Source: a virus. From it: a stretch of DNA of 25,564 bases. The position numbers and the translations under genes are program-made. The stretch's first letter is position 1, and each line of letters opens with the position of its first letter. The notes under the pieces were generated by a model. The model was not told the origin of the DNA. It worked only from the letters and a program-made list of their open reading frames with translations, and searched no databases. This document shows positions 1,836-25,564 of this stretch, piece by piece. The stretch lies in IMG/VR virus record IMGVR_UViG_3300037264_005519, positions 1-25,564 of that record; one strand, written 5' to 3'.

Positions 1836-2080
1836 CAATTAAAGTTCCAAAGAATGCACGTGGACACTTCTGGAATGAACCACCACCTAACCATTATGAA
1901 TTTTGGGCATTTAGAAATAAGCCAAAATGTGCAACTGGTGAACTAATCACTTTCTATTTTGATAATCAACCGGTAGCTTCTATTCAAGAGCCACACCAGG
2001 CAAAATGTGAACAAACAGGACGCTTTGGTAGCAGCTGGAAGGTATTTTGGACGCCAGAGAGCTTTACGAAGCTTTCTTGA
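1832..2080 (+). CDS. Small unknown phage protein
   Basis: 82 residues, starting at the ATG that overlaps the upstream TGA (ATGA at 1832-1835). Notable segments are ITFYFDNQPVASIQEP and TGRFGSSWKVFWTPESF, which give an aromatic, beta-rich profile with two cysteines (PKCATG, AKCEQTG). It looks like a small cytoplasmic phage protein family, but I cannot name it. Its last 17 bases overlap the 3' end of the converging thymidylate synthase gene. Confidence 0.72.
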   Translation: MTIKVPKNARGHFWNEPPPNHYEFWAFRNKPKCATGELITFYFDNQPVASIQEPHQAKCEQTGRFGSSWKVFWTPESFTKLS

Positions 2081-3176
2081 CGGCTATCGAGCCTATTCCA
2101 TCAGGGCTAGACTCAAGAACATAATCGCCAAAATAAGAACCGTACTGGCTTGACTTTAGAGCCTCCAGAGCATCACTGAAAATAATGCGTATTTCTGCAT
2201 CGGCTGCTAGCGTAGCTCTAAGATCCAACATCCATCTCCATATGGTGACCGGCGCAGTAAAGAACATCTCTGTGTATAGAGCATTACCTAGAACACCACG
2301 AGCAGCACCACGTGCTTGTTTTCTAGCATTAAACTTATCAATCCCCAAATTAATTAACTGGTTTTGAAGATCTTCAACCGTCACCCCATATGCGTCTTGA
2401 CATGCATGTTTGCTGTCATTTAATTGTTTTTTATGAATTTCATCTGATAATTTTTCAATTAACGGATGCCAAACCCATGTACTTTCTGATTCATCACAGT
2501 ATCGTGTGCTTCGTTGTGAAATATTAAATCGATGTCTAACCATTTCATGACTGAACCCACGAGAACCAGCCATAAACAAGGTAATATGTTTCTCCATCAT
2601 ATGTTCTGGCTGCACCAACTCCCATAACAAACTAGATTTATCACCGTTAAAATTGCGGAAAATAATAGGGGCCAACTGTTTGGACGCATGGAATAAAACC
2701 AGCTTAAGCTGTTCACACAATGGGCTATCATACAAGTCTGTTGGTAATACACCTGACCACTTATCAAAATCAAGCACATTTCTAAAATTAACTGTAATTC
2801 TTAGATCTGTATTGTCTTCATTGAGTCCAGCCCTAACTGGTTTAACAAAAATACCTGGTCGGTTCATTAATATATGGCTGGCATGATATTGGTCATTTAA
2901 TTTTTCAAAATGGACTAATACTGTGAAATAAGCATGTTCAACTGTACTAAGGTGATTAACATCAAGAATGTGCTTATGATATTCTTCACTAGAGCGTCCA
3001 GCTCCCAACGAGTCATAACAGACTCTACCAGCTAATTCACATAACATTTCTCTTGGTGTTCCTTGTAATTGTTGTTTATCAGTTATTTTAGCTTTATCCT
3101 TCGGCATCATTTCATCAGGGATTATTGGATTAGCATCGCGCTCATCCCATATTAATTTAGCAACCATATTCTTCAT
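2064..3176 (-). CDS. thyX: Flavin-dependent thymidylate synthase, long form with an altered signature
   Basis: ThyX makes dTMP from dUMP with methylene-tetrahydrofolate and reduced FAD. Visible family landmarks are ELAGRVCYDS (about 47-56), HLSTVEHAYFTVLV (75-88), SRGFSHEMVRHR (205-216) and the C-terminal run from LGNALYTEMFF through WMLDLRATLAADAEIR. At 370 residues it is much longer than the usual 220-260. The signature reads RHRFNISQRSTRY: eight residues separate RHR and RY, where most ThyX proteins I know have nine (RHR...S.RY). The start ATG at 3176 has GGAG about 11 bases upstream, so the SD is weak. It is the last gene of a minus operon containing a glycosyltransferase and a kinase. 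A role in making an altered deoxyuridylate is possible but only inferred. Confidence 0.93.
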   Translation of the reverse strand: MKNMVAKLIWDERDANPIIPDEMMPKDKAKITDKQQLQGTPREMLCELAGRVCYDSLGAGRSSEEYHKHILDVNHLSTVEHAYFTVLVHFEKLNDQYHASHILMNRPGIFVKPVRAGLNEDNTDLRITVNFRNVLDFDKWSGVLPTDLYDSPLCEQLKLVLFHASKQLAPIIFRNFNGDKSSLLWELVQPEHMMEKHITLFMAGSRGFSHEMVRHRFNISQRSTRYCDESESTWVWHPLIEKLSDEIHKKQLNDSKHACQDAYGVTVEDLQNQLINLGIDKFNARKQARGAARGVLGNALYTEMFFTAPVTIWRWMLDLRATLAADAEIRIIFSDALEALKSSQYGSYFGDYVLESSPDGIGSIAVKKAS

Positions 3177-3219: not shown

Positions 3220-5127
3220 TCATTTAGAAGTATAACCGTATTTAGCAACGAGTCGTTTGTGGGCGAATGCGAACCTAACTTGCATCGAATCTTTAGATAA
3301 TCTGAATTCCAATTGTTTATTCTTTTCATGATGTTGTTTCCATCCAATGCTTCTACCATGATACATGTGAAGAAGGTCAATAAACCTATTATTATGAAAT
3401 TTGCAACCAACTGATAATCGTGCGAAGAATTCCGTATCTTCGCAACCGTATCCTATAAATTCTTCAATGTGCCCACCAATCATTATATAAGTATTACGCC
3501 GACAAGCCAATGAACCACCCTCAAAATACCGAACACTTCTTTCTGCATGTAGATCATTATCTAACTGATTATGTTTAACAATATTATTTGTGGTCATCTC
3601 ATCTAAACAAATAACACTTTTACCAATATGCAGCCCCTCATAAGTATCAAGCAACAAAGAAACTGTTTCTGTGTAATCATCTTGAATTAACATATCAGCG
3701 TCGTGCAGAATTATTTTATCAGTTTTTGCTTCTACACAACCTCTATTAAAGGCAAGAGCTTTAGTGAAAGGCTGATTGCTAAATTCATTACGGGCTAGAA
3801 CATATTTAACCGTAGCCATCTCTGCTAGCTTCAAACGGCGATCAGAATCTTGCTCAGCAATAATAATATCGATGTATGGATATTTCTGCGCTTTAACATT
3901 CTGTATGGCTACACGGATACTATCTGTTCGGTCCTGTTCCCGAAAAGGGATAATGAACGATACTCCTGATACCTTAGATTTATCACTTGGTTTGACATAA
4001 ATGCGATTCTGATCGCGCCGTAATGATTCATATCTCTTTCTAGCTTCGGCTAGAAAGATAGTTCTGGCATCAACTGCTGATTTATCAGGATGCACCTTAT
4101 AAAACTGGTCTGAACCAACTATATCATGGAAACCGGGCGGTTGTATACTACTCAATTCAACCCTATGTGACCAATCAACATGTTCCATGCCATAAACACC
4201 AAATGTCTCATCAAAGAAACCAACCCGTTCAAATGCAACATGGTCAAGCGCAAATACAGCTCCTTGTGGTTTCTCATCAATTGTCCTTACCATGATGCCA
4301 TTTATGTCTTTAACAATACCATCTGAATCCTTTGCGCCATAAACGCCCGATTGTCGCATACAAAAATGATGAAACCCAGTATCATGCATTGCCCTAACAT
4401 AGAGTTGTTCCCAATTTTTACCAAGGATCTCCACATCATCATTTAATAGAATTTTATAACGAAAACGTTCAAGACATTTTAGAAGCCGATTTGTGTTACC
4501 AGCAATACCTAACCGTTCTTTGTTCAATAATACACCCATGTCTCTAACTGAGTGCAAATACTCACGTACGTTGGGTTCAGTTGATTCGTCACTAATTATA
4601 ACTGTAGTCCTTGAAAGATCGGTGTTATTTCTAATTGATTTAATTAATCTCTTAATGCAGTCTAACCTATTAAAACTCAATATACCTACACCAATATCAT
4701 TCGATATGGAAAATGATACGCGCTTAGTCAGCTCACGAAGATAATTGCTCGCTTCCTCCGATCGCATCGAGGTTGAGCCTACTATTGGTTTACGTCGTAT
4801 TACGTCTTGTTGCTTAGCAATTCTAACCGATGCACGTTTTCGCATTTCAGCCAAATAAGCTCGGCGTTCTTCTCGCTGTTGGATTTTACGCACAAGCTCT
4901 TTAGCTTTAATCTTCGTCATATCAACTCTGTGAATTGGTCCTTGCGGAACACCAGCAATTGCATCTTCTTTAACAATTTTAAGATATCGTGGGACATACC
5001 TGGTGAAATATTTTGGCAATACTTTTCTTTCGGCTTTAGCAAGATGTACCCGTTTTACATCAGGAGGAGGCCCAGATAATATAATAATGCGTCCAGAAAC
5101 ATTCATAAATTCAATTAGATCACTCAT
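3220..5127 (-). CDS. Glycosyltransferase with two GT-A domains
   Basis: 635 residues. After a Lys/Arg-rich N-terminal region (1-140) comes a first GT2-like domain (about 145-340: IGVGILSFNR, acidic LLNDDVEI at 227-234, GMEHVDWSHRV at 313-323). A second follows (about 388-600: VSFIIPFREQDRTDS, LHDADMLI at 474-481, GYGCEDTEFFARL at 559-571, which resembles the galactosyltransferase-type C-terminal motif). Both domains keep a DxD-like acidic motif, so both may be active, as in bifunctional polysaccharide synthases. There is no signal peptide or membrane helix, so it probably acts in the cytoplasm. The acceptor is unknown: modified phage DNA, a virion protein or a host glycan are all possible. 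The start overlaps the upstream kinase gene by ATGA. Confidence 0.9.
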   Translation of the reverse strand: MSDLIEFMNVSGRIIILSGPPPDVKRVHLAKAERKVLPKYFTRYVPRYLKIVKEDAIAGVPQGPIHRVDMTKIKAKELVRKIQQREERRAYLAEMRKRASVRIAKQQDVIRRKPIVGSTSMRSEEASNYLRELTKRVSFSISNDIGVGILSFNRLDCIKRLIKSIRNNTDLSRTTVIISDESTEPNVREYLHSVRDMGVLLNKERLGIAGNTNRLLKCLERFRYKILLNDDVEILGKNWEQLYVRAMHDTGFHHFCMRQSGVYGAKDSDGIVKDINGIMVRTIDEKPQGAVFALDHVAFERVGFFDETFGVYGMEHVDWSHRVELSSIQPPGFHDIVGSDQFYKVHPDKSAVDARTIFLAEARKRYESLRRDQNRIYVKPSDKSKVSGVSFIIPFREQDRTDSIRVAIQNVKAQKYPYIDIIIAEQDSDRRLKLAEMATVKYVLARNEFSNQPFTKALAFNRGCVEAKTDKIILHDADMLIQDDYTETVSLLLDTYEGLHIGKSVICLDEMTTNNIVKHNQLDNDLHAERSVRYFEGGSLACRRNTYIMIGGHIEEFIGYGCEDTEFFARLSVGCKFHNNRFIDLLHMYHGRSIGWKQHHEKNKQLEFRLSKDSMQVRFAFAHKRLVAKYGYTSK

Positions 5128-10484: not shown

Positions 10485-10747
10485 TATGTCACCTTTTTGG
10501 TTATAATCATCGTTTGAAAAACTTGCACTGGCTCAAAACCATCAGCCGCTTCTCTTTCTAGATACGTTTTAATAGTTGGTGATCCATTAGTGTTAGTATT
10601 GCCTGAATCAGCAGTTACTCTGAATTCGGTGTCAAATTTGAGCATTTCATTAATAGAGAGGTTTGCCTGATTACTACGTCGTACAACGCGGCCATCAGGC
10701 AATACATTAAGGTAGGCTAACTCTGCTATGTGGACTTCAACAGCCAT
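10484..10747 (-). CDS. Small unknown phage protein
   Basis: 87 residues; alternating hydrophobic residues suggest a beta-rich fold. Recognisable stretch TIKTYLEREAADGFEPVQVFQTMIITK near the C-terminus. No signal sequence. Joined by TAATG overlaps to the 5' nuclease gene upstream and to the lipoprotein gene downstream. Function unknown. Confidence 0.7.
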   Translation of the reverse strand: MAVEVHIAELAYLNVLPDGRVVRRSNQANLSINEMLKFDTEFRVTADSGNTNTNGSPTIKTYLEREAADGFEPVQVFQTMIITKKVT

Positions 10748-11622
10748 TATTCACCTCCACATGCGAGGTTTAACTTAAATGGTAAAATCACCCTAGTATA
10801 TTCACCTAGTAACCCACGCACTTTGTATTTTTGAATAATGCCCCTAAGAGCAGTTTGGTCGAATTTTGGTTCCTCTGATATTATTTCAGTAATATAATAC
10901 ATGTTCTTAAGTAAGTACGGACACAATGATAAATCAATTAGTGCTCTATTACGCAGATATATTTCTGTATCGTTTTCTTTAAAGAATTCACTACGTTTCT
11001 TCAAATCATCAACTAAGACTTTAGCCCTAACTGGTCCAATCTGATAATACCCATGTATATTGTCAGCACGTTCTCCCATAAAACATTTTAATTCCACAAC
11101 ATCAAGGTCATCCATACCATGTTCGAACAATTGTTTATCTTTAGCTAACGGATTGAATAAGGAAACATTTTTGAAATGATATGGTATTTGTTTAAAGTCG
11201 CCATCACTACTAATTATAATTGTTTTCGATGCGTTCATTTGCTTGCAAAAAGCATATATTAGATCATCTGCTTCTTGCTTCTCTACTGCGTAGGATCTAG
11301 CATTAAGATGTGGTATCATTTCACCCAATACTGTCGTACAGCGTACTAATGACTCATCAATGCCTCCCTGCTCATGCTTACCATCGTGAGTTAGATCGCG
11401 TCCTTCTTTATATTCTGGCAATACTCGTTTCCGCCATACTTGTGCTTTTGGGCAATCCCATATAAAGTGAATATTCTTGGGTTTAAGACGATGAATATAG
11501 CTACTAATAAATCTGAACAGAATTACAATATCTTCAATGTCTTGATTGTTTCGATCTGATAGGTTAGCATATATAGCTCTATATATTGCATTCCTAGTAT
11601 CAATTACCATATGTTCATACAT
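10747..11622 (-). CDS. 5'-3' exonuclease / flap endonuclease (PIN fold)
   Basis: 291 residues. Removes RNA primers and 5' flaps during replication, as phage T4 RNase H and T5 exonuclease do. Visible signatures are the early Asp (VIDTRN, D8), WRKRVLPEYKEGRD (63-76), the metal-binding EKQEADDLIYAF (114-125), SSDGDFKQI (138-146), MGERADNIHGY (182-192) and a helix-hairpin-helix-like IGPVRAKVL. The usual GD in the GDxxDNIPG motif is GE here. The start ATG at 11622 (or the second ATG at 11610) has no SD. It lies only 8 bases beyond a strong hairpin that separates it from the SSB gene, so its translation may depend on that structure or on low-efficiency initiation. Confidence 0.88.
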   Translation of the reverse strand: MYEHMVIDTRNAIYRAIYANLSDRNNQDIEDIVILFRFISSYIHRLKPKNIHFIWDCPKAQVWRKRVLPEYKEGRDLTHDGKHEQGGIDESLVRCTTVLGEMIPHLNARSYAVEKQEADDLIYAFCKQMNASKTIIISSDGDFKQIPYHFKNVSLFNPLAKDKQLFEHGMDDLDVVELKCFMGERADNIHGYYQIGPVRAKVLVDDLKKRSEFFKENDTEIYLRNRALIDLSLCPYLLKNMYYITEIISEEPKFDQTALRGIIQKYKVRGLLGEYTRVILPFKLNLACGGE

Positions 11623-11674: not shown

Positions 11675-12787
11675 TTATTTCTTTCTTGATCTAATTGAAC
11701 CAAGAAGCTCTTGAAGCTCTGGATCATCAGCTACTGCTGTGGCTGCAGATTTTGCCTGAGCCTCTTGAGCTGGGGCTGCCTGAGCTGGGGCTGCCTGAGC
11801 TGGGGCTGCCTGAGCTGGGGCTGCCTGAGCTGGGGCTGCCTGAGCTGGGGCTGCCTGAGCTGGGGCTGCCTGAGTTTTTGTGCTCGATGCAGCTGCCTTT
11901 GATTGTGATTGCTGTGATTTTGACGATGACCCCACTGGAGCTTCAGCTGCTTCATCGTCAGGATCGATTTCCTCAGCATCATCCTCAACACCAGCTTTGA
12001 TGTTCTCGATCTTTTTCACGAGCATGTGTAACTTCTCAACACTACGTTCACCAAACCGTGTCTGCAGAACGATCCGCTTAGATAGGATCTCTTCGATCGT
12101 CTTATCATCAGGATCGTTCTTATCACTAGCAACCATCAATGGGCTGAACGACTTTGGCAAGAAACTCGATTCAGAATAATCATTCCAATCGCCCTTCTTC
12201 TGGGCAATCAGTTTGAATGTATAACCACCCTCATATGGGTGGTAGAAAATTCCATGTGCTTTCTGATCAATTTCATCACCAGCATCATCACTACTTATGC
12301 ACTCATCCATCTTGCGCCACAGGGTAATCGGTAAGTTAAACCATTTAACCTTACCCCGTAACTCTTCCGGATTCGTCTTCACATCAAGGAAATAAACGTT
12401 AACCGCAAATCCTTGTCTGGAAAGATACTTCTGTGCGATCTGCGTCTTAGCAGCCTTATCTGGAGCACTCTCCATCAAATCAAAACCCAATTGACAGAGA
12501 GAGCACTCCCTCCCATCGTGAACACGCGGACATTCAAAGCGCTCTTTCTGATACCAGTGAGCACCATTCTCATAATACCACAGATCATTGTCAATTTCAC
12601 ACAGACCACCAGCACACTTATCTCCCTTGTGGAGTTCCGGCAAGACTCTAAAATAAAAAACAGACTTGCTATTGTCCTTAATCTGCGGTGGTGAGAACTG
12701 ATCTGGGTCCCTACGTCTACTAGTACGCTCATCTTGCTTCTTGCGCATCCTCTTCAGTAGCTCTTCACGTGTTGGCATTGCAGACAT
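11675..12787 (-). CDS. Single-stranded DNA-binding protein, gp32-like
   Basis: 370 residues. Coats single-stranded DNA at the fork and in recombination. An N-terminal basic region (about 7-27, many Arg/Lys) could mediate cooperative binding. The core has VFYFRVLPELHKGDKC (43-58) and a gp32-like zinc site: H77, C86, C95, C98 (C-x8-C-x2-C; T4 gp32 has H then C-x9-C-x2-C). A disordered C-terminal linker holds acidic residues (about 268-285) and seven copies of QAAPA. The protein ends with a conserved-looking DDPELQELLGSIRSRKK tip; unusually, the last residues are basic, whereas SSB tips are normally acidic. ATG at 12787 has AGGAGG about 8 bases upstream. High translation and the hairpin behind it suggest strong expression. 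Confidence 0.87.
   Translation of the reverse strand: MSAMPTREELLKRMRKKQDERTSRRRDPDQFSPPQIKDNSKSVFYFRVLPELHKGDKCAGGLCEIDNDLWYYENGAHWYQKERFECPRVHDGRECSLCQLGFDLMESAPDKAAKTQIAQKYLSRQGFAVNVYFLDVKTNPEELRGKVKWFNLPITLWRKMDECISSDDAGDEIDQKAHGIFYHPYEGGYTFKLIAQKKGDWNDYSESSFLPKSFSPLMVASDKNDPDDKTIEEILSKRIVLQTRFGERSVEKLHMLVKKIENIKAGVEDDAEEIDPDDEAAEAPVGSSSKSQQSQSKAAASSTKTQAAPAQAAPAQAAPAQAAPAQAAPAQAAPAQAAPAQEAQAKSAATAVADDPELQELLGSIRSRKK
11766..11870. repeat. Seven perfect tandem copies of a 15-bp unit
   Basis: The plus-strand unit TGAGCTGGGGCTGCC is repeated seven times without a mismatch. On the coding (minus) strand it gives the pentapeptide AQAAP in the SSB linker. Perfect identity at synonymous positions points to recent slippage expansion. 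Confidence 0.95.
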
Positions 12788-12799
12788 GGTTTGCTCCTC

Positions 12800-13276
12800 C
12801 TATGCTTGTTTTTTCTCTTCCCTCTTGAAGCCAGCCAGACTTCTAAGATGGTCTGATTTACGTTGAAGAGCATTAACTACAGCCCGAATCTTGTTTTCGG
12901 CTTTCTCTTCTTTGATGATTTTAGCTTGTAGAAGCGTCATGCGATCATCAGCATTGATTATATTATTCATCACTTGAACGCTTGTCTTTATCCCTTGTTG
13001 CCGTGAACGATCAATTATTTCGTCAATGATTGTTGCTTTGGTCACCTCCTGTTCAGCTTCTAGTGTAGAAACAGTTGCACGTTGTTCTGCTAATAATTGA
13101 TCAAAGAAACATAGCATCTCAGGCAACTCGGCCAATTGGTTCTCAAGTCCATCAAAATCAATGGTTAGATCGGGCCTTACATCACGTTGAAACAAGCTAC
13201 GATTAGTTAGGGTTATACGTATGTTGAAGACGTATTCGGCAATTTCAGAACTAATATGTTTAGCAACCCAACCCAT
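12800..13276 (-). CDS. Coiled-coil protein, possible recombination mediator
   Basis: 158 residues, almost wholly helical. The section from FDGLENQLAELPEML through AEQRATVSTLEAEQEV to KIRAVVNALQRKSDHLRSL reads as two long amphipathic helices with a middle segment GIKTSVQVMNNIINADDRM. This matches the general shape of UvsY-like or SSB-partner proteins that many phages encode beside SSB and RecA, but the assignment rests on pattern and position (next to SSB), not on a firm motif. The start is set at 13276 because GAGG lies about 8 bases upstream; the earlier ATG (13294) has no SD. Confidence 0.7.
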   Translation of the reverse strand: MGWVAKHISSEIAEYVFNIRITLTNRSLFQRDVRPDLTIDFDGLENQLAELPEMLCFFDQLLAEQRATVSTLEAEQEVTKATIIDEIIDRSRQQGIKTSVQVMNNIINADDRMTLLQAKIIKEEKAENKIRAVVNALQRKSDHLRSLAGFKREEKKQA

Positions 13277-13324
13277 GCAACACCTCGTCAGCATCAGATA
13301 CGTTAATGATGTGAGAGTGTAGAA

Positions 13325-13513
13325 TTAGTCGCGGTGGGCTTGTTGCAACAACTTGTCCAACTCAACTGCTTGCTTCTTTATCTCTTCACTTTTTGCCCGT
13401 TCTTCCGCTTCTAGCACTCGTTTCCTTTGCTCTGTTTTCCTTTGCGCTTGTCTTTTTTCTCTTACTCGTTGTTCTCTTCTTTTTCTCTTTTTCTCTTTAC
13501 GCCTTTGATTCAT
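13325..13513 (-). CDS. Very basic charged peptide coupled to the polymerase gene
   Basis: 62 residues, of which more than half are Arg, Lys or Glu (MNQRRKEKKRKRREQR at the N-terminus; AVELDKLLQQAHRD at the end). It should form a single helix or coiled coil that could bind nucleic acid. The start overlaps the polymerase stop (ATGA at 13510-13513), which argues that the frame is real although composition is biased. Function unknown. Confidence 0.6.
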   Translation of the reverse strand: MNQRRKEKKRKRREQRVREKRQAQRKTEQRKRVLEAEERAKSEEIKKQAVELDKLLQQAHRD

Positions 13514-14652
13514 CTATGTACTCTTAGTTTTTTCCATCTGCGCCATCGATCTCCGACACTAACTTTGATCGGCATTCGCGGAGCTGGATTAACCCAACCA
13601 TCCAACGGTTGCAACATTATTTTAGATACTTCATTAATAACCAGCGGCACTACCTCCTCATTACAACACATAATTATTGAATCATGCACCTCCGCAAACA
13701 AATACTTAGGAAACCTATCGTTAATCTTAACTAAAGCCGCTTGCATCGCATGGACTACACTACCCTGAAATTGCCCATTAAAAACACTTAACTCATTATT
13801 GGCTTCAACAATAAAACGTCGCATTAAGATACTATCTAAATAACCTTGTTTACGCATTAACTGTAATCGATCCACCAACCACGACTTAAACTGTGGGAAT
13901 ATCTCAATAATCGGGTGATTAACATTAAGAGCATATAGCGCCTTAATTAATTCACCTTTACATCGATCTCTACTATACTCCGGATCATGCAGATAGGATT
14001 CAATATATGTATACGGATCTGATTCTAAGAATGATGCTTCCATTTGTTGGTCACCAGACATAAAAGCGGCCATTCGTAAATCAGCGGCAAGCCAATCAAA
14101 ATGCACAAACAAATTAAGATCATCATGAATTGGTCTAATGTCGTATTCATCTGTAGTGCCCTGAACATTAAAACCAAGTGTCTTAGACCTACCCGTAAAT
14201 GTATCAAGGCTATATCTTGTTGATATGACCTTATGGCCATGTCGTATCTTCTTTAAATCAAGATCAGCATATACAAATTCAACATCAGCTAATAATTTCT
14301 GCCATTGGCATGGGTTAATGTTACACAATTCTGATGCTAATCTTAATAAGATTTTTCTACCATGTTGCACATCACTTGGTTTAATATGTAATTCTGGAAT
14401 CGCATAATCATATATGATCGGACCTGGTTCAAGATTAAAGTTTAATATATGCGATTTATAATCGTTAATACATAATTTATCCAACAACATTACTCTAAAT
14501 CTAGACATTGCTTCTTTAATTTGCTTAATAGTGAGACCTATGCCTGGCAAGTAAAATTCAAAAAACTCAATTGAATCTTGATATATTACAACTGATTGTA
14601 ATGGCCGTGGCGGAGTATGGGCATAATCAAATAATGTCAGAATATGACGCAT
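13510..14652 (-). CDS. Minimal family A DNA polymerase-like protein
   Basis: 380 residues, against about 600 for a Klenow-type polymerase. Motif A is HFDWLAADLRMAAFMSGD (catalytic Asp186; the Glu of SQIELR is Asp). Motif B is RDRCKGELIKALY (R228, K232 and Y240 in the Pol I R-x3-K-x7-Y spacing, with Ile for the Phe). QFQGSVVHAMQAAL matches the QGTAAD helix, and motif C is EVHDSIIM (Asp324; the usual HDE is HDS). TRYSLDTFTGRSKTLGFNVQG matches the TGR-LSS-NLQNIP region. The first 130 residues look like a shortened, degenerate exonuclease domain (INDYKSHIL, IYDYAIPELH) without the Exo I Asp-Glu pair, and the thumb is small. It may do gap filling or repair beside the DnaE-type enzyme. SD unclear at ATG 14652. 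Confidence 0.82.
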   Translation of the reverse strand: MRHILTLFDYAHTPPRPLQSVVIYQDSIEFFEFYLPGIGLTIKQIKEAMSRFRVMLLDKLCINDYKSHILNFNLEPGPIIYDYAIPELHIKPSDVQHGRKILLRLASELCNINPCQWQKLLADVEFVYADLDLKKIRHGHKVISTRYSLDTFTGRSKTLGFNVQGTTDEYDIRPIHDDLNLFVHFDWLAADLRMAAFMSGDQQMEASFLESDPYTYIESYLHDPEYSRDRCKGELIKALYALNVNHPIIEIFPQFKSWLVDRLQLMRKQGYLDSILMRRFIVEANNELSVFNGQFQGSVVHAMQAALVKINDRFPKYLFAEVHDSIIMCCNEEVVPLVINEVSKIMLQPLDGWVNPAPRMPIKVSVGDRWRRWKKLRVHR

Positions 14653-14670: not shown

Positions 14671-15015
14671 CTACTTAGATTTTGGGCTAAAATGACGACG
14701 TTTTGGATTGAACTTTCCACCTTTACGTAACTTATTCGCTAGATCGTCCTTCTCACCCTTCTCACGCATATGGTTGTATGGATCATCATTAATTAGCTTA
14801 TATAGGTTCATGTCTCTACGTCTACCGGCTTTGTCAAGCCAACCATAACCTCTAATATAGGTCACTGGTACTGATATGAAAGTCACATGTGTCTTAATGC
14901 CATTACATTGAGGACATTTAATAGTTGGTTTCTCTTTCATACCATGTATTATTTCGAATACAAAATGATGTTTATCGGTACTACACTTTTCGCACATGTA
15001 ATCGTATCGCATCAT
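14671..15015 (-). CDS. FmdB-type zinc-ribbon protein
   Basis: 114 residues. It begins MMRYDYMCEKCSTDKHHFVFE and continues KPTIKCPQCNG: two C-x2-C pairs in the spacing of the FmdB family (small zinc ribbons of unknown role, common in phages). The C-terminal half is Lys/Arg-rich (LANKLRKGGKFNPKRR), suggesting nucleic-acid contact. Two consecutive ATG codons (15015, 15012) follow AGGAG; the second has the better spacing (6). Overlaps the stop of the upstream gene. Confidence 0.75.
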   Translation of the reverse strand: MMRYDYMCEKCSTDKHHFVFEIIHGMKEKPTIKCPQCNGIKTHVTFISVPVTYIRGYGWLDKAGRRRDMNLYKLINDDPYNHMREKGEKDDLANKLRKGGKFNPKRRHFSPKSK

Positions 15016-15410
15016 TTTCTCCTACGTGCCCATACATATGATACTTGCACACGTACTACATCTAAATCAACCGCACGTGCTCTCCCATAATTTATATGTA
15101 TAATTTTAGCATCTTGAACAAACCACTCCTCAATAACTTGTTCACTATGATTTATTAACAATAAAATTATACTATGCTTATCTTTTTTCTGGAGCCATTC
15201 CGCCGTATGCTCTTGATGCCTAGTTGGTATCTCTAGTAGAATATTTTGCCATTGTGGTTTACCATCAGATTTAAGTATGGTCTTCCCATCTCGTTGTTCT
15301 TCTTTAACTGGAAACTTAAAACTTGGTCTTTCGGCATAATAAAGAACTTGTTTTTGGTCGTTCCCAAACACTATGTGCCAATTCTGATGCTGTCGAATAG
15401 AGCCAATCAT
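15012..15410 (-). CDS. Unknown protein with a tail-tube-like C-terminal pattern
   Basis: 132 residues, beta-rich, no membrane segment. The C-terminal stretch EEWFVQDAKIIHINYG followed by DVVRVQVSYVWA resembles the strand pattern of T4 gp19-type tail-tube proteins. I rate that as weak because the gene lies inside the replication block, coupled by ATGA to the helicase. It could equally be an unrelated small replication accessory protein. Confidence 0.62.
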   Translation of the reverse strand: MIGSIRQHQNWHIVFGNDQKQVLYYAERPSFKFPVKEEQRDGKTILKSDGKPQWQNILLEIPTRHQEHTAEWLQKKDKHSIILLLINHSEQVIEEWFVQDAKIIHINYGRARAVDLDVVRVQVSYVWARRRK

Positions 15411-16861
15411 TTTTTCTTCTTGTTCTTTCCTCTATTATCTGTATTTATAGCTTCCTTATCAGGCCGTATAATTGTATCTATAAATCCCTGTTCTCGCATA
15501 ACCATAGTTTCATAATTAATGGTACTACCTACGCTTCTAAACTTAGGACCATTTCTATTCTTAGCAATATATAAACGACATCGTGCCGCTGAAACCGGTC
15601 GTTCTATCGCTTGCTCTTTTGTATCACCATGGACTATTTCTCTACCAATTTCATATTCTTGCTTAGTCTGATTAATGGTTACAACATAACTCAATGGCAT
15701 CGCTTTACCAAAACTTTCTGCCATTTTATTTAACTCAATTACATTGTCTGAACCTTTCGTATTAAGCGGGTCCATCCCGGATCGGTTCGATTGGCTAGCT
15801 GTCACACCGAATACATTCTCTTTTACGGCAAGTCTGGCGAATTCGGTACTGACGCGTTTTTGACGCATATATTCATCATCACGTCCACCGGTTCTTCTTG
15901 AAAGTAACAATTCCAAATAATCTAGAATTACAACATCAATTACTACACCATGGATGCGTCTCAACGCATCAAGTAAAGCATGAATAGCATCAACACTAAT
16001 CTCATCAGGAGGATACTCAACTAAAATTAATTCAGCACCATAGGTTGCTTTTACGGCACGTAAACTCTCAATCATTTGTATTTTCTTATCAAGTCTGCTT
16101 CGTACCTTCAATTCGGTAAAACCACCTAGATATCTATATCCAACCTGTAATTTTGGCATTTCACACGTAACATGCAGAACATTCTTTCTTCTACGAATAT
16201 TAGCAATACCAGTATGATTCAATGCAATCGATTTACCAACACCTGTAGGAGCCAGATAACAAAAAGTATCACGCCTAACTGGTCCACCATAATTCAAACA
16301 AGAATCAAGAGATGCAAAACCAGTCGTAAGTTTTTCTTCTTTCTCATCCACGAACAACTTCTCATAATCATCAAACATCCATAACATATCTGTACCAAAA
16401 TTCACTATGCGTCGTGCATCTTCAATCACCTGTTCTTGGTATTGATATTCACCACGCTCATGGGCATCAAGCGCCTCTTTACTGTAAAGTAAACTAAACT
16501 GCTTTCGTCTAGCCCATTCCATAAGTCGTTCAGTAATTATGGGGACTTCCCTTGGATCTGACTCACGCTTAATTAGTGATATAACATCATCATGTGGATC
16601 GTCGGCGGTTAACGTCTGTTCGGCAACATCAATACACATTGGTCTAGTAACGATTATATTGTGTTTATCATAATAGAACTTAATTATGTTGAATACAAAC
16701 TTTGCTTCATACCTATCAAAATGTTCATCACGCAGATAGCCAATTACTGCTGAGAAGAACTCTGGTTGATCGAATGATAATGATATAATTGCTATTTCTT
16801 CATGTGGTCCAAAAGCACGCCGCTGTCGTTCATCAACGGCAACGTCATCTTGTATTTCCAT
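15407..16861 (-). CDS. Replicative DNA helicase, DnaB family
   Basis: 484 residues. Unwinds DNA at the fork as a hexamer. An N-terminal helical domain (about 18-150) precedes a RecA-like core: LTTGFASLDSCL, Walker A APTGVGKS (204-211), Walker B VIDVVILDYLELL (307-317), and motif GVTASQSNRSG (352-362), which corresponds to the DnaB H3 motif region. The C-terminus is a Lys-rich tail (NRGKNKKKK). Its start overlaps the preceding stop as TAATG. No separate primase or loader is recognisable nearby; the unknown 244-residue protein just upstream is a candidate partner by position only. Confidence 0.92.
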   Translation of the reverse strand: MEIQDDVAVDERQRRAFGPHEEIAIISLSFDQPEFFSAVIGYLRDEHFDRYEAKFVFNIIKFYYDKHNIIVTRPMCIDVAEQTLTADDPHDDVISLIKRESDPREVPIITERLMEWARRKQFSLLYSKEALDAHERGEYQYQEQVIEDARRIVNFGTDMLWMFDDYEKLFVDEKEEKLTTGFASLDSCLNYGGPVRRDTFCYLAPTGVGKSIALNHTGIANIRRRKNVLHVTCEMPKLQVGYRYLGGFTELKVRSRLDKKIQMIESLRAVKATYGAELILVEYPPDEISVDAIHALLDALRRIHGVVIDVVILDYLELLLSRRTGGRDDEYMRQKRVSTEFARLAVKENVFGVTASQSNRSGMDPLNTKGSDNVIELNKMAESFGKAMPLSYVVTINQTKQEYEIGREIVHGDTKEQAIERPVSAARCRLYIAKNRNGPKFRSVGSTINYETMVMREQGFIDTIIRPDKEAINTDNRGKNKKKK

Positions 16862-17595
16862 TATGCAGATCCGGAACTATCAGGACAATACGCTTGTTGT
16901 CTAAAAACTGCTCTCGCCACCGCTCGTTCCAAAAAACTCACGGCTAATGGAAGCGCCTCACATATCTTACATAAATCAACCTCTGGGTACTTAATAATCT
17001 GATTATAAGTCATATCACCACGATCCCCAACCGTCATGTGCTTACCTGGCCTTGGCGTAATCGTAAACACATACACCCATTGATTTAAATCAGTATTCCA
17101 CTCAATGCCGTCAATTCTAAACCCTTCAAGGCGTCCAAGCACTTCAGCCGACTCTCTCAAATACACAAACTCATTATATCCAAAGCGCGGTATCGTCGTA
17201 ATAATCATCTGCTTAAATTTAACAGGTGCTGGTGGATCTTGTGCTGGTTGTGGTTCGACACAATTATCGGTAAACTGTTTTCGCACATCGTCTAATTCTT
17301 TATTAAGAACACGGATCTGAGTATCGAGTGCCTCGCATAGAATCATGATTAGTGATTCACGCAATTCAATTTGTGTTAATGTCATTCGTGCTACTGGTTC
17401 AATTGAGTTATCAATACCCTTTTTAAATTCGCGACTAAATTTATAAACATATTCATTAATGGCTGGCACATATCTAACACCAGTTACGATGATTGGTTCA
17501 ATAAATCCTCTTACTGCGGATGCTTTAACATAGACTACCTCATTTATTGCAAAGCGGGCTTGCGGTGGCCGAAGTATTGTTCTATCACCTGACAT
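16861..17595 (-). CDS. Unknown protein with two duplicated SH3-like domains
   Basis: 244 residues. Two segments resemble each other: RFAINEVVYVKASAVRGFIE...VTGVRYVPAINEYVYKFSR (about 14-56) and RFGYNEFVYLRESAEVLGRLE...IDGIEWNTDLNQWVYVFTI (about 137-179), each read as a small beta barrel. Helical regions follow each copy, and a Pro-rich linker (EPQPAQDPPAPVK) joins the halves. No catalytic motif. It lies between recA and the helicase gene, joined to both by TAATG, which suggests a replication or recombination accessory role. Not a family I recognise. Confidence 0.72.
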   Translation of the reverse strand: MSGDRTILRPPQARFAINEVVYVKASAVRGFIEPIIVTGVRYVPAINEYVYKFSREFKKGIDNSIEPVARMTLTQIELRESLIMILCEALDTQIRVLNKELDDVRKQFTDNCVEPQPAQDPPAPVKFKQMIITTIPRFGYNEFVYLRESAEVLGRLEGFRIDGIEWNTDLNQWVYVFTITPRPGKHMTVGDRGDMTYNQIIKYPEVDLCKICEALPLAVSFLERAVARAVFRQQAYCPDSSGSA

Positions 17596-18680
17596 TAGCT
17601 CTCGCCTGACTCTATATTCTCTGCATCGTCGGTATCGTCACCACCAACGAACACTTCCTCATTAGATTTGGATAGAAGTTTCTCCCTAAGCTTAATATTA
17701 AGATCAGCCAAAATATCCGTATTCTCCTCAAGAAACTTAACAGATGCCCACCAACCCTGGCCAATTTTCTGGTCATTATATGAAAACCACGACCCAGACT
17801 TATCAATCAACTTAAACTTACAACCAAGATCTAAAAGACTACCAGCCTCGGATATACCCTTACCAAATATAATGGCAAATTCGGCATTCCTAAATGGGGG
17901 TGCGACTTTATTTTTAATCACCTTTACTAATGTAAGATTACCAATCATTTGTTTAGCACCATCAACCATTTCTGATATGCCCATCTTCCTACGAATATCC
18001 ATTCTAACTGATGAATAATATCGTAATGCACGACCACCTGGTGTCGTCTCACGATTTGCACCTGGCATCATCATGCCAACTTTCTCTCTAATCTGGTTAA
18101 TAAAGATTAAACAAACATTTGACTTATTAACATCAGATGACAACATGCGAAGTGACTTACTCATCAATCTAGCTAGAGGTGCCATTTGTTTGTCTTCAAT
18201 CTCACCATCTAGTTCCTCCTTCGGAACCATCGCAGCAACGGAATCAACAACTATTACACCAACCATATGGGATTGAATTAACTTCTGACAGATCTTAATT
18301 GCTTGTTCACCATAATCTGGTTGTGAAAACAACAAAGAATCCAGATCCACACCAATATGTTGAGCATACCCTGGGTCAATAGCATTTTCAACATCAATAT
18401 ACGCAGCAACTCCACCTTGACGTTGACATTCAGCCACTATTGTCAACGCCAATGTCGTCTTACCACTACCCTCAGGACCAAAAATCTCAACTACTCTCCT
18501 CTTTGGAACCCCACCCACACCTAGTGCATGGTCAAGTGCGAGACAACGTGTCGATATTGATTCACATTTTAAAACACCACCGGTAAGGATGCCTTGTCTA
18601 ATAGAATCGTCACCAACCTCACCATGAATTGATTTAATAACCTCTTGTAACTTATCATCTGGTTTCTTGTTTTTCGCCAC
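17595..18680 (-). CDS. recA: RecA recombinase, bacterial type
   Basis: 361 residues, full length for RecA. Forms filaments on single-stranded DNA for strand exchange and recombination-dependent replication. Walker A is GPEGSGKTT (68-76). DVEN (96-99) replaces the common DAEH but keeps the catalytic Glu. Walker B is VIVVDSVAAMVPK (142-153), the L1 region ELDGEIEDKQM is present, and FINQIREKVGMMMPGANRETTPGG covers L2. L2 is two residues longer than typical MFG-x-PETT loops and has Met for the conserved Phe. The C-terminus is acidic (GGDDTDDAENIESGES), as in cellular RecA, where it regulates DNA access. Start is GTG at 18680 with AAGGAG 8 bases upstream, within the end of the previous gene. Confidence 0.95.
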   Translation of the reverse strand: MAKNKKPDDKLQEVIKSIHGEVGDDSIRQGILTGGVLKCESISTRCLALDHALGVGGVPKRRVVEIFGPEGSGKTTLALTIVAECQRQGGVAAYIDVENAIDPGYAQHIGVDLDSLLFSQPDYGEQAIKICQKLIQSHMVGVIVVDSVAAMVPKEELDGEIEDKQMAPLARLMSKSLRMLSSDVNKSNVCLIFINQIREKVGMMMPGANRETTPGGRALRYYSSVRMDIRRKMGISEMVDGAKQMIGNLTLVKVIKNKVAPPFRNAEFAIIFGKGISEAGSLLDLGCKFKLIDKSGSWFSYNDQKIGQGWWASVKFLEENTDILADLNIKLREKLLSKSNEEVFVGGDDTDDAENIESGES

Positions 18681-22649: not shown

Positions 22650-22951
22650 GATTTCGTCGTCCAATCGTCTTTTGGTTGTTGTGGACTGGCTTGGTCTTGT
22701 GGATTAGCACCCCGATCAAGAGCACGCATCTTAACCCGCTCTAACAGCTCATTCATACATTTAGTGCATACATCTAGGTCTAACCAACGACGATCAATAT
22801 GCTTAATTCCGGTTTTACCAATTTGACGATCAACCTCAACAAGATCTAATTTGGCATTATAATATTCAAATTTGTCAATATAAGTCGAGTTACACAAATC
22901 ACAGATTATACCAGTTTGCTTTTTACTAATCTGGTCAACATGGACTACCAT
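22646..22951 (-). CDS. Small Cys-motif protein
   Basis: 101 residues. Two C-x2-C pairs (IICDLCNSTY near 17-20 and DVCTKCMNEL near 61-65) probably bind one zinc. The second half is helical, with a Gln/Pro-rich tail. The ATG at 22951 overlaps the end of the polymerase gene by 7 bases and has GAGG 7 bases upstream, so it is co-expressed with the polymerase. Confidence 0.72.
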   Translation of the reverse strand: MVVHVDQISKKQTGIICDLCNSTYIDKFEYYNAKLDLVEVDRQIGKTGIKHIDRRWLDLDVCTKCMNELLERVKMRALDRGANPQDQASPQQPKDDWTTKS

Positions 22952-25564
22952 AATAAATCCTCGCCTAGATCTTTTTTCACCGTCTCATTAATCACAACAC
23001 CATCGTCAATTTCAACTGTTTTATGTAGTAACGGTATAACAACACTACCATTAGCTATCCTAAATGACTCTCGCTCCTTATTGTACACAACATCAACTTC
23101 TACACCAGCTCCATCACCAAACACCCTCCTATCACAAGCATTATAAACATCCGCCCAAATTACAACATCCGTAACCTGAACCCCATCAGTTAAATGCATT
23201 ATATAGAAAAAACTACCGCTAGCCTTGGCACGTTTGGTTTCTACTTTCTCTACCACAGCTTCTATTTTAACAATTATGGCTTCTTCACTAGCCAGACTCT
23301 GTTCTTTGGCCTTCTTAATTGTAAACCCACGCGTATGGTACATCAATAATGGTGAACTCCAATAATAACCAAGCATATTCTTCTCTATCACAAGACGCTC
23401 GCTTATATCATAATCATTAAATAAATTTATTACTTGTTCTCTAGTTAAGATTGGCTTAGGACGCCATTTAAGCAACCCAACTGGGATTTTCTTCTTTTTC
23501 GGATTAAGTTGCTTATATTCAGCAATAAGTTTAACACGTCTATTGAGCACATCTTGTTCCGGCCATGCAAACTCAAGATCAACCTGTTTTTTAAGTTCAC
23601 GGATATCAGATCCTGAGCAATATTTATATTTATACCATACCCATAAACCACGACGATTGGAATGCAACTTATCAAACGCACCTAATTTTATCAGCCGCTC
23701 AAAGACTATTTTATGTTTACCACACTTTGATATCATATCATCAATATTAATAAATGGGCCAGGAATCTTAGTAAACGCCTCAGCTGCTTTTCCACCGACA
23801 CCCTTAACTGCTTTAAGCCCAGGAATAACCCTACCATTTAATACTGTAAATTCTTGGGTTAAATTATTAATATCAATCGTTCCGAATTCCACACCATCTA
23901 ATTTGGCTGCACTCATATAATGACCAAGTTTATCACGGTGACATTCGGTCATAACTGCTGCCCACCATTCTGCAGGATAATGAGCCTTAAGGTATAAACA
24001 ACGATAAGTAATCAGCGAATAAGCTAGAGCGTGGGATTTATTAAAACAATATCTGCCGAAGAAGACCATCTTCTCCCACCAAGCATTAGCGGCTTGCTCA
24101 CCAATAACATTAGAAGCACCACTTTTCCATTTCTTCTCAATCTGCGGCAATTTCTCGATCCACTTCTTTGAAACAATCTTTCTGGCTTCTTCGGCCTCGA
24201 CTAATGAGAAGCGGGCTAGTTTGATCCACGTAGCGCTGAGCTGCTCTTGATAACATTGTTGAGTTGCAATGCCATTGGCAATAACAGTATGATCTGGCGA
24301 AACAGATAAATTATAAAATTGAACGTTCTTAACATGATTAATTTTCTTAATTTTATAATACCGAACATCACCAAATTCAACGCCGATAGTCATAGCGATA
24401 GAAGTTCTAATAACATCAGACTGATGTTGTAAATTCTTTCTATTAATACCAAATTTTGTACAGAATTTCCTCTGTGATAATCCTGATTCCTTGATCTTAT
24501 CAAATAAAACTGTCTTTGGAGCATAGCCAACAGTATTGGCATCATATAATTTCCCATTTATCTTCTTTAATAAGAAATCTTTACAAAGATTGTTCACATG
24601 CTTAGTATTCCACATATAAATCTTGGTGTCATTAATAGCAGATATAACTCCAAGGCTTACACACAATCGATGTATGTCTTGCAATAATAATTTATTACAT
24701 GATGAGATATAAACAGCAGCAACGCCATTCCCATTAATTGAAACACACCCATCTGAGTCAATTAAACCAGCCAGAAATGCTGACTTGACCTTTATTGTTG
24801 ATGATGATATATTAATTGGAATACGCTTTTTATGAACATTGCAATTCAAGTTAAGTTTCTCAATTAAATCATGAAACTTCGTCTTTTTCTTCTTTATAAT
24901 TAACTCACCACAACTAATTCCAACATAATAACATCGACAATGTTTATAAATCCGGGTCTTAATCTTTGGTAATTTTACATTGATCCATTTTTGTAACTTA
25001 TGAGCGTCGAGTTTGCTACCAGCTGCTATGGCAAGACTACTACTAGTTAGACAGCCATCGCCGACCAAATGACCAATAAGATATGCTACATCAGTATTAG
25101 ATCCTAGCCAACTAGCCAACTTCTTCTTATTGGCATTGTCATATGTCTTAATAGGCACTGCGATTAGGTCACCTAATTTTAAATCTTTTGCTTCGACTCG
25201 CTTATTATTAAAAGTAATATACTTATGATTAGCCGTCGTAGTTAAAGATAGGCCATTCTCTAATATTACTTCTAATCCATCGCCAAATACAGTTTCCGCA
25301 TGACAATCAACTTTATTATGAATAATACGATTTTCAGAGTTCAATGATTGCACCACTTCGCCATTATTTATATCTATAATCCTCTTATGTGATCCATCTG
25401 CCATTGATAACAATGTGTCACCATGATAGCAGATAACTCCAAATGTCTCACCAAGAATATCAATAATTCGTGGATCTTCACCCTTCTTCCATTCCTGCTT
25501 TGGATCGTCACGTCGTTTAATATATTCAGGAATCATATCCATCGGGCCTGGGCGACCCATGGCA
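22945..25564 (-). CDS. dnaE: DNA polymerase III alpha subunit (DnaE type), C-terminal part, interrupted by an intein
   Basis: Replicative polymerase. The frame continues beyond the window's right edge, so the N-terminal PHP domain and the catalytic palm are not seen. The exteins read MGRPGPMDMIPEYIKRR, then LGETFGVI joined to CYQEQLSATW (E. coli: YGIILYQEQ), then CFNKSHALAYSLITYRCLYLKAHYPAEWWAAVM (the GFNKSHSAAYA region), VIPGLKAVKGVGGKAAEAF (helix-hairpin-helix), FERLIKLGAFDKL, and an OB-like domain (about IIVKIEAVVEKVETKRA to FRIANGSVV). It ends soon after the OB fold, so the C-terminal tau-binding region of E. coli DnaE is lacking. The intein (24256-25431) must splice out. The gene leads the operon ending in an oxidoreductase. 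Confidence 0.93.
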   Translation of the reverse strand, partial: AMGRPGPMDMIPEYIKRRDDPKQEWKKGEDPRIIDILGETFGVICYHGDTLLSMADGSHKRIIDINNGEVVQSLNSENRIIHNKVDCHAETVFGDGLEVILENGLSLTTTANHKYITFNNKRVEAKDLKLGDLIAVPIKTYDNANKKKLASWLGSNTDVAYLIGHLVGDGCLTSSSLAIAAGSKLDAHKLQKWINVKLPKIKTRIYKHCRCYYVGISCGELIIKKKKTKFHDLIEKLNLNCNVHKKRIPINISSSTIKVKSAFLAGLIDSDGCVSINGNGVAAVYISSCNKLLLQDIHRLCVSLGVISAINDTKIYMWNTKHVNNLCKDFLLKKINGKLYDANTVGYAPKTVLFDKIKESGLSQRKFCTKFGINRKNLQHQSDVIRTSIAMTIGVEFGDVRYYKIKKINHVKNVQFYNLSVSPDHTVIANGIATQQCYQEQLSATWIKLARFSLVEAEEARKIVSKKWIEKLPQIEKKWKSGASNVIGEQAANAWWEKMVFFGRYCFNKSHALAYSLITYRCLYLKAHYPAEWWAAVMTECHRDKLGHYMSAAKLDGVEFGTIDINNLTQEFTVLNGRVIPGLKAVKGVGGKAAEAFTKIPGPFINIDDMISKCGKHKIVFERLIKLGAFDKLHSNRRGLWVWYKYKYCSGSDIRELKKQVDLEFAWPEQDVLNRRVKLIAEYKQLNPKKKKIPVGLLKWRPKPILTREQVINLFNDYDISERLVIEKNMLGYYWSSPLLMYHTRGFTIKKAKEQSLASEEAIIVKIEAVVEKVETKRAKASGSFFYIMHLTDGVQVTDVVIWADVYNACDRRVFGDGAGVEVDVVYNKERESFRIANGSVVIPLLHKTVEIDDGVVINETVKKDLGEDLLW
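24256..25431 (-). mobile_element. 392-residue intein with LAGLIDADG homing endonuclease
   Basis: An in-frame intervening protein inside dnaE. It begins with Cys1 (CYHGDTLLSMADGSHKR, block A). Block B has TTANHKYIT (T-x-x-H). Two LAGLIDADG motifs, LIGHLVGDG (118-126) and LAGLIDSDG (220-228), make a complete homing endonuclease, and near residue 320 a SQRKFCTKFGINRKN segment resembles a helix-turn-helix. Block F is VQFYNLSVSPDHTVIANG and block G ends GIATQQ before Cys+1 (CYQEQ). The last two residues are Gln-Gln instead of His-Asn, which is atypical. Gln-ending inteins are known, but loss of the penultimate His is notable. Insertion is in the conserved YQEQ segment of the fingers/palm region. 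Confidence 0.92.

Follow-up and report, generated by a model that had tools for sequence, protein, structure and literature searches.

Why would a phage with a DnaE-type (family C) polymerase also carry a second, very small polymerase of family A? The question is raised by a 25,564-nucleotide stretch of viral DNA (IMG/VR record IMGVR_UViG_3300037264_005519, positions 1 to 25,564), which we refer to as the window. A sequence-only reading had noticed a DnaE-type gene and a 380-residue PolA-like gene in it and had proposed that the latter might be a specialised gap-filler or lesion-bypass enzyme working with a 5' nuclease of the same operon, or else a degraded polymerase. Below we consider whether the small protein, here called mini-PolA (P0001), is likely to function as a polymerase, in what respects it departs from Pol I, and what task it might perform for the phage.

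The mini-PolA gene (13510-14652, minus strand) is a real open reading frame with an ATG start, and its assignment to family A is well founded. The protein scores 41.9 bits against Pfam DNA_pol_A (PF00476; cut-off 34.3), the match covering residues 250-371 alone, and all 60 family members match PF00476 at E <= 0.01. The family profile aligns the polymerase region to Taq polymerase (152-375) and to the apicoplast polymerase (30-375). All residues named in the sequence-only reading (D186, D324, R228-K232-Y240, I236 and HDS at 323-325) are indeed present, and they can be placed on the Klenow fragment together with several others, all encoded on the minus strand. R155, located in the sequence TGRS (14188-14190), corresponds to Klenow R668; the catalytic Asp of motif A, D186 (14095-14097), to D705; R228 and K232 of motif B (13957-13971) to R754 and K758; N292 and Q296 to N845 and Q849; and H323-D324-S325 of motif C (13678-13686) to H881-D882-E883. 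R155, D186, R228, K232, N292, Q296 and D324 are invariant in the family (60/60 each), and H323 is kept in 58 members; the third residue of motif C is Ser in 53, Cys in four and Ala in three. Residues 228-240, which make up motif B and the O helix, are helical in the AlphaFold model. The motif B Tyr (Y240, Klenow Y766) is present in P0001 and in 37 of the 60 sequences altogether, the remaining 23 having Asn. At the position of Klenow 762 the family has Leu (36), Phe (12), Ile (8), Met (2) or Asn (2), and the Ile of P0001 (I236), previously regarded as an oddity, is simply one of several residues found there.

Mini-PolA belongs to a family of its own. We collected 60 distinct relatives of similar size (median 389 residues, most of them 365-400, some with a C-terminal tail) from IMG/VR contigs of up to 408 kb; a gene of the same size occupies the same place in all 60, down to about 28% identity. 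A single-sequence search returned one close relative only, and the family was reached by way of adjacent genes and progressively enlarged alignments. Searches of 84,980 species genomes (by pattern), 72,556 plasmids and 50,697 phage records yielded no full-length relative, isolate phages giving only a partial match to generic PolA. As the viral and genome scans relied on patterns plus tblastn, very divergent copies could have been missed. The patterns covered parts of KTTGFNIQG, MAAFMSG, VFNAQFQ and QGSVAHAM, so that the invariance at 157-165, 194-200 and 290-303, including N292 and Q296, is partly built in, while R155, D186, D191, R228, K232 and D324 lie outside them. Two PHROGs of short polymerases, phrog_2573 and phrog_5995, were considered as members of the same family and rejected; their matches are limited to a portion of the C-terminal half, the similarity therefore being that of PolA in general. 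The phylogeny of family A polymerases suggested along with the original observation places all mini-PolA sequences in one clade with 100/100 support and a long stem (2.45 changes per column), and the T5-like and Twort-like PolA proteins branch with other PolAs outside it; the placement of outgroups in this tree is weak, because some of their branches are very long. Mini-PolA is carried by big phages that form a large group without cultured members to date. We found no publication describing the clade, or phages whose DnaE is encoded by two genes, in a search that covered subscription journals thinly, and a precedent is possible.

Is mini-PolA a working polymerase or the remains of one? Compared with the 79%-identical copy in the related locus L002, its dN/dS is 0.044, in the same range as for DnaB (0.065) and RecA (0.056); selection on mini-PolA thus appears strongly purifying, with dS saturated. 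Structure prediction, which had been proposed as a check, gave a confident AlphaFold model from the 60-row alignment (pLDDT 95.7, pTM 0.93), compared with a pLDDT of 45.6 when only three sequences were supplied. In Foldseek searches, this model matched Pol theta (2e-13), Pol nu and Pol I, the alignments spanning nearly the whole chain; against Mycobacterium smegmatis Pol1 (6vdd) the query TM-score was 0.70 over 559 columns. No viral model of similar size among those listed gave a good match along its full length. According to the model, mini-PolA has the right-hand fold with palm, fingers and thumb, and D186 and D324 would be expected from the fold match to come together in the palm; the refuting outcome named with the original observation, a model with these two residues apart, was thus not seen as far as the fold match can tell. 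The invariant catalytic residues, the dN/dS of about 0.04 and the high-confidence predicted fold therefore speak against a degraded polymerase, one of the two options initially offered. A chance reading frame or pseudogene is ruled out by the conservation, the dN/dS and the model. We also rejected the idea that an intron or a frameshift divides a longer polA of which this gene is one piece, since the 60 relatives share both ends and the neighbouring genes adjoin directly; mini-PolA is complete. Taken together, sequence and model indicate that it is probably an active miniaturised family A polymerase, a "mini-Klenow".

The miniaturisation has affected specific parts of the molecule. As had been stated from the outset, mini-PolA is far shorter than Klenow (380 vs 605 residues), and the profile alignment assigns the deletions relative to bacterial Pol I to the tip of the thumb, to the fingers past the O helix and to a site preceding motif 6. 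The stretch that runs from the position of Y766 to the following conserved Trp measures 17-18 residues in 56 of 60 members, compared with about 33 in bacterial Pol I. In Pol I, strand displacement depends on the O-O1-O2 bundle, with F771, S769 and R841 being important (PMC6846080). At the F771 position all 60 members lack an aromatic residue, and, because the fingers segment with the strand-displacement wedge is lost, the alignment predicts that strand displacement by mini-PolA would be weak. Its loss is not certain, however, since the R841 position is occupied by Arg or Lys in 33 of 60 sequences. Residues 1-92 (14377-14652, minus strand) form a vestigial 3'-5' exonuclease core of the DnaQ/RNase H-like type, with the bbb-a-b-a-b order of secondary structure elements in the model, in agreement with the degenerate exonuclease-like region recognised before; the alignment of the apicoplast polymerase to the profile starts in this part, at position 30. 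A first exonuclease motif of the DxE type is found in none of the 60 members, none having Asp or Glu at the +2 position, although Asp at position 9 of this core is present in 37; in the P0001 model there is also no counterpart of the third exonuclease motif between the b-a-b core and the next helices. As no member has the DxE motif, proofreading is not expected from mini-PolA.

In the active site, the truly distinctive residue of mini-PolA, overlooked in the sequence-only reading, is the Asp in place of Glu at the steric gate (Klenow E710). D191 (14080-14082, minus strand) occupies this position, which is Asp in 59 members and Glu in one; Glu is typical of family A there but is not strictly required, the E389A variant of the Tt72 phage polymerase retaining 35% activity (PMC9324360). 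By contrast, HDS in motif C, singled out as unusual in the sequence-only reading, is also found in Twort-like and T5-like phage PolA and in the Tt72 polymerase, which is active and retains 76% activity as the S616A variant (PMC9324360). Because E710 is replaced by Asp in 59 of 60 sequences and Y766 by Asn in 23, substrate choice or rate may differ from those of Pol I. The combination of an Asp gate, HDS/HDC and Asn at 766 might even define a family A class with relaxed sugar selection; during gap filling on the lagging strand of a two-gene DnaE replisome, such an enzyme could incorporate ribonucleotides or copy across remnants of RNA primer. HDS/HDC in motif C is a trait of single-subunit RNA polymerases as well; we nevertheless consider such a class doubtful.

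The surroundings of the gene are more informative about its task. Mini-PolA lies in a block with the order RecA, DnaB, FmdB, PolA, an unknown protein, gp32-like SSB and T4 RNase H-like 5' nuclease, and this order is the same at every locus where the genes are present. When 81 loci were searched with iterated profiles, in a set in which some copies overlap and some contigs are truncated, the SSB and the unknown protein (p12800) each had a homologue at 80, DnaB at 77, the FmdB-like protein at 75, and RecA and the 5' nuclease at 71 each. In the window all these genes are on the minus strand and several overlap by 1-4 bases, which is consistent with one transcript. RecA (17595-18680; Pfam 1e-100) and the DnaB-like replicative helicase (15407-16861; phrog_19, 5e-54) are followed by an FmdB-like zinc-ribbon protein directly upstream of PolA (14671-15015), whose Zn_ribbon_8 match (7.7e-5) is under the Pfam cut-off. 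Overlapping the PolA stop by four bases is a 62-residue reading frame rich in Lys, Arg and Glu (13325-13513), which has a counterpart in L002. Next comes p12800 (12800-13294; phrog_2058, 2.7e-11), for which there was no PDB match below E 0.3 and no tblastn match in isolate phages; it is a candidate partner of the polymerase or the SSB. The gp32-like single-strand DNA binding protein (11675-12787; Pfam gp32, 9e-12) has near its C-terminus an AAPAQ-type repeat encoded by a perfect 15-base tandem repeat of 7.3 copies (11766-11874). The 5' nuclease (10747-11622), already assigned to the same operon in the sequence-only reading, follows the SSB. It matches Pfam 5_3_exonuc_N (8e-20), with T4 RNase H as the best PDB match (2.6e-12), and its catalytic acids are intact: D8, E117, D119, D120, D140, D142 and D187 are present in 67 of 67 relatives and D56 in 65, and position 184 is Asp or Glu in all. 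Downstream of the block, here as in many relatives, is a two-domain glycosyltransferase (3220-5127, minus strand), with homologues at 51 of the 81 loci. The window also has a ThyX-like thymidylate synthase (Pfam Thy1; 2064-3176, minus strand), which the neighbourhood search found in none of the related loci.

The description of two polymerases flanking a recA-dnaB-ssb group needs some correction: both are near these genes, but the PolA gene sits within the block, with dnaB on one side and ssb on the other, and dnaE is about 4 kb upstream of recA. Likewise, the DnaE-type gene is real (22945-25563, minus strand; phrog_405, 2e-57; DNA_pol3_finger, HHH_6), but the window holds only its C-terminal gene, which is interrupted by an intein and runs off the contig end at 25563; the PHP domain and the PDxDxD motif positions fall beyond that end. 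The intein, with boundaries read off the sequence, is of 392 residues (24256-25431, minus strand), lies between GVI and CYQEQ and contains a LAGLIDADG homing-endonuclease domain (Intein_splicing 3e-12, LAGLIDADG_3 2e-10). It seems to end in Gln rather than Asn, immediately ahead of the extein Cys (ATQQ|C). The relative G001 has no intein at this site.

The related contigs provide a fuller view of the replication genes. A small PolA occurs in all 27 long contigs, in 26 by Pfam with one frame each and in G011 only via its own locus, L056; DnaE was detected in 23 of them, and neither a full-length PolA nor a PolB was found in any of the 27, which confirms the co-occurrence of DnaE-type and PolA-like enzymes in one phage. 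In all 23 contigs DnaE is encoded by two genes, with the break near profile position 98-100, just ahead of PDxDxD, and the halves in separate open frames; in these relatives the PHP domain is in the N gene and the catalytic PDxDxD in the C gene. In G009 the halves are separated by 58 kb and lie on opposite strands, in G017 the separation is 17 kb, and in G001 inspection revealed no intein sequence at the join. In G001 (L014-L020; L105-L124 also show the two-gene DnaE), the C gene starts with a copy-like stretch, LVIPFLLGMTPVDP, of the end of the N gene. Two isolates with a related DnaE have it as a one-piece gene. Homologues of Toprim primases were identified in 20 of the 27 contigs, one being marginal, and mini-PolA is therefore unlikely to be the phage primase. 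A ligase was identified in 11 of 27, many of these contigs being fragments; in G014, G015, G016 and G017 there are short ligase-like frames of 201-220 residues, possibly minimal or split ligases, and G014 and G016 have an NAD-type ligase frame in addition. A beta clamp was not detected in the 27 contigs; a search for the T4-type sliding clamp (PF02916) gave no match, its control being likewise blank, and is uninformative.

Based on these data, we favour a reading in which mini-PolA is an active enzyme of a monophyletic class that fills the short gaps left after the T4 RNase H-like nuclease has removed RNA primers, in other words, Pol I in separate pieces; we put its probability at roughly 0.6. 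This reading starts from what is observed for mini-PolA, namely its family, residues, predicted fold, gene order and the replication genes present with it, and the gap-filling role itself is suggested by gene content and neighbours. It also develops the gap-filler half of the sequence-only reading, which, by this line of inference, is the best-supported of the roles considered. The phage primase would lay RNA primers, and the two-gene DnaE, as the main replicase, would synthesise the leading strand and the Okazaki fragments. The nuclease encoded after the gp32-like SSB gene would take the primers out, mini-PolA would fill the resulting short gaps, stopping at the downstream strand rather than displacing it, and a phage or host ligase would seal the nick. 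Two activities that bacterial Pol I combines in a single polypeptide, the removal of primers and the filling of gaps, would thus be split between proteins of one conserved block. It should be kept in mind that the host's own Pol I could mature the phage Okazaki fragments, in which case the phage enzyme is perhaps not needed.

RecA and the SSB also fit recombination synthesis, and because they share the block, the main rival is that mini-PolA is the synthesis arm of recombination: RecA would form D-loops, and mini-PolA, together with the SSB and the helicase, would extend or fill the invading ends, as in recombination-dependent replication. The grouping of RecA, the DnaB-like helicase, the gp32-like SSB and mini-PolA within one conserved block agrees with this, as do SbcC- and SbcD-like reading frames seen by inspection in a 140-kb relative. 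However, the 5' nuclease and the phage primase indicate removal of RNA primers, and an enzyme with shortened fingers and no wedge residue seems ill suited to D-loop extension, which needs strand displacement; we regard the recombination role as unlikely, if still worth considering. Less probable still is a specialised error-prone or lesion-bypass polymerase resembling Pol theta, Pol nu or the actinobacterial APEX/PolA2. Pol theta and Pol nu are the top Foldseek matches, the proofreading motif is absent, the steric gate and Y766 are altered, and dead exonucleases also occur in bacterial PolA2 enzymes (PMC12926913). On the other hand, the polymerase domain of Pol theta is much larger than mini-PolA, the PolA2 clamp motif QxxLF is absent from the family (0/60), no beta clamp was detected in the 27 contigs, and the constant position of the gene among core replication genes suggests a housekeeping function. 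That mini-PolA has lost catalysis and persists in the replisome for a structural or DNA-binding purpose, as HDS for HDE, the shorter thumb and fingers and Asn at Y766 in 23 members might suggest, is highly improbable given that the metal-binding Asp pair and the triphosphate-binding Arg and Lys are invariant (60/60) and that the Tt72 polymerase is active with Ser in place of E883 (PMC9324360).

How does mini-PolA, taken as a gap-filling enzyme, compare with known systems? It resembles the Klenow part of Pol I (PolA1) in fold (Foldseek probability 1.00) and in having equivalents of R668, D705, R754, K758, N845, Q849 and D882, yet the two share just 19% identity over the aligned part, and mini-PolA differs in its length, its shortened thumb and fingers, its vestigial exonuclease and the replacement of E710 by Asp. 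PolA1 has a fused N-terminal 5' nuclease, whereas mini-PolA begins at the exonuclease-like core and the nuclease is a separate gene (10747-11622). If active, mini-PolA would rank with the smallest family A DNA polymerases in nature and would offer a minimal scaffold for finding which parts of Pol I serve catalysis, strand displacement and sugar selection. The T5-like, Twort-like and Tt72 polymerases are likewise phage-encoded and have HDS for HDE (Tt72: PMC9324360), but all are longer (802-1046 residues for T5-like and Twort-like enzymes, 703 for Tt72). The exonuclease of Tt72 is active, and both Tt72 and the T5-like enzyme have Glu where mini-PolA has Asp (Klenow E710).

Among cellular enzymes, the APEX/PolA2 polymerases of actinobacteria are similar in being family A polymerases with an eclipsed 3'-5' exonuclease (PMC12926913); unlike them, mini-PolA is without QxxLF, occurs in contigs in which no beta clamp was found, and has a phage rather than bacterial distribution. 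Bacteria in which canonical Pol I is missing or replaced keep a solo 5' nuclease supplying that domain, and so they, too, have polymerase and FEN activities in separate genes (PMC12926913). Those systems are cellular, however, whereas here the enzyme is far smaller, belongs to a phage and has a gp32-type SSB and a T4 RNase H-type nuclease as its neighbours. The picture that emerges is a testable one: a phage lineage that would run two polymerase families, with the main one split and the lagging-strand activities of Pol I residing on separate proteins. In phage T4, RNase H, gp32, the polymerase and ligase cooperate in primer removal, and gaps are filled by the family B replicase. The genes for the T4 RNase H-like nuclease and the gp32-like SSB, side by side in the present block, recall that pathway; in contrast to T4, however, the gaps would be left to a dedicated mini family A enzyme, with DnaE as the replicase.
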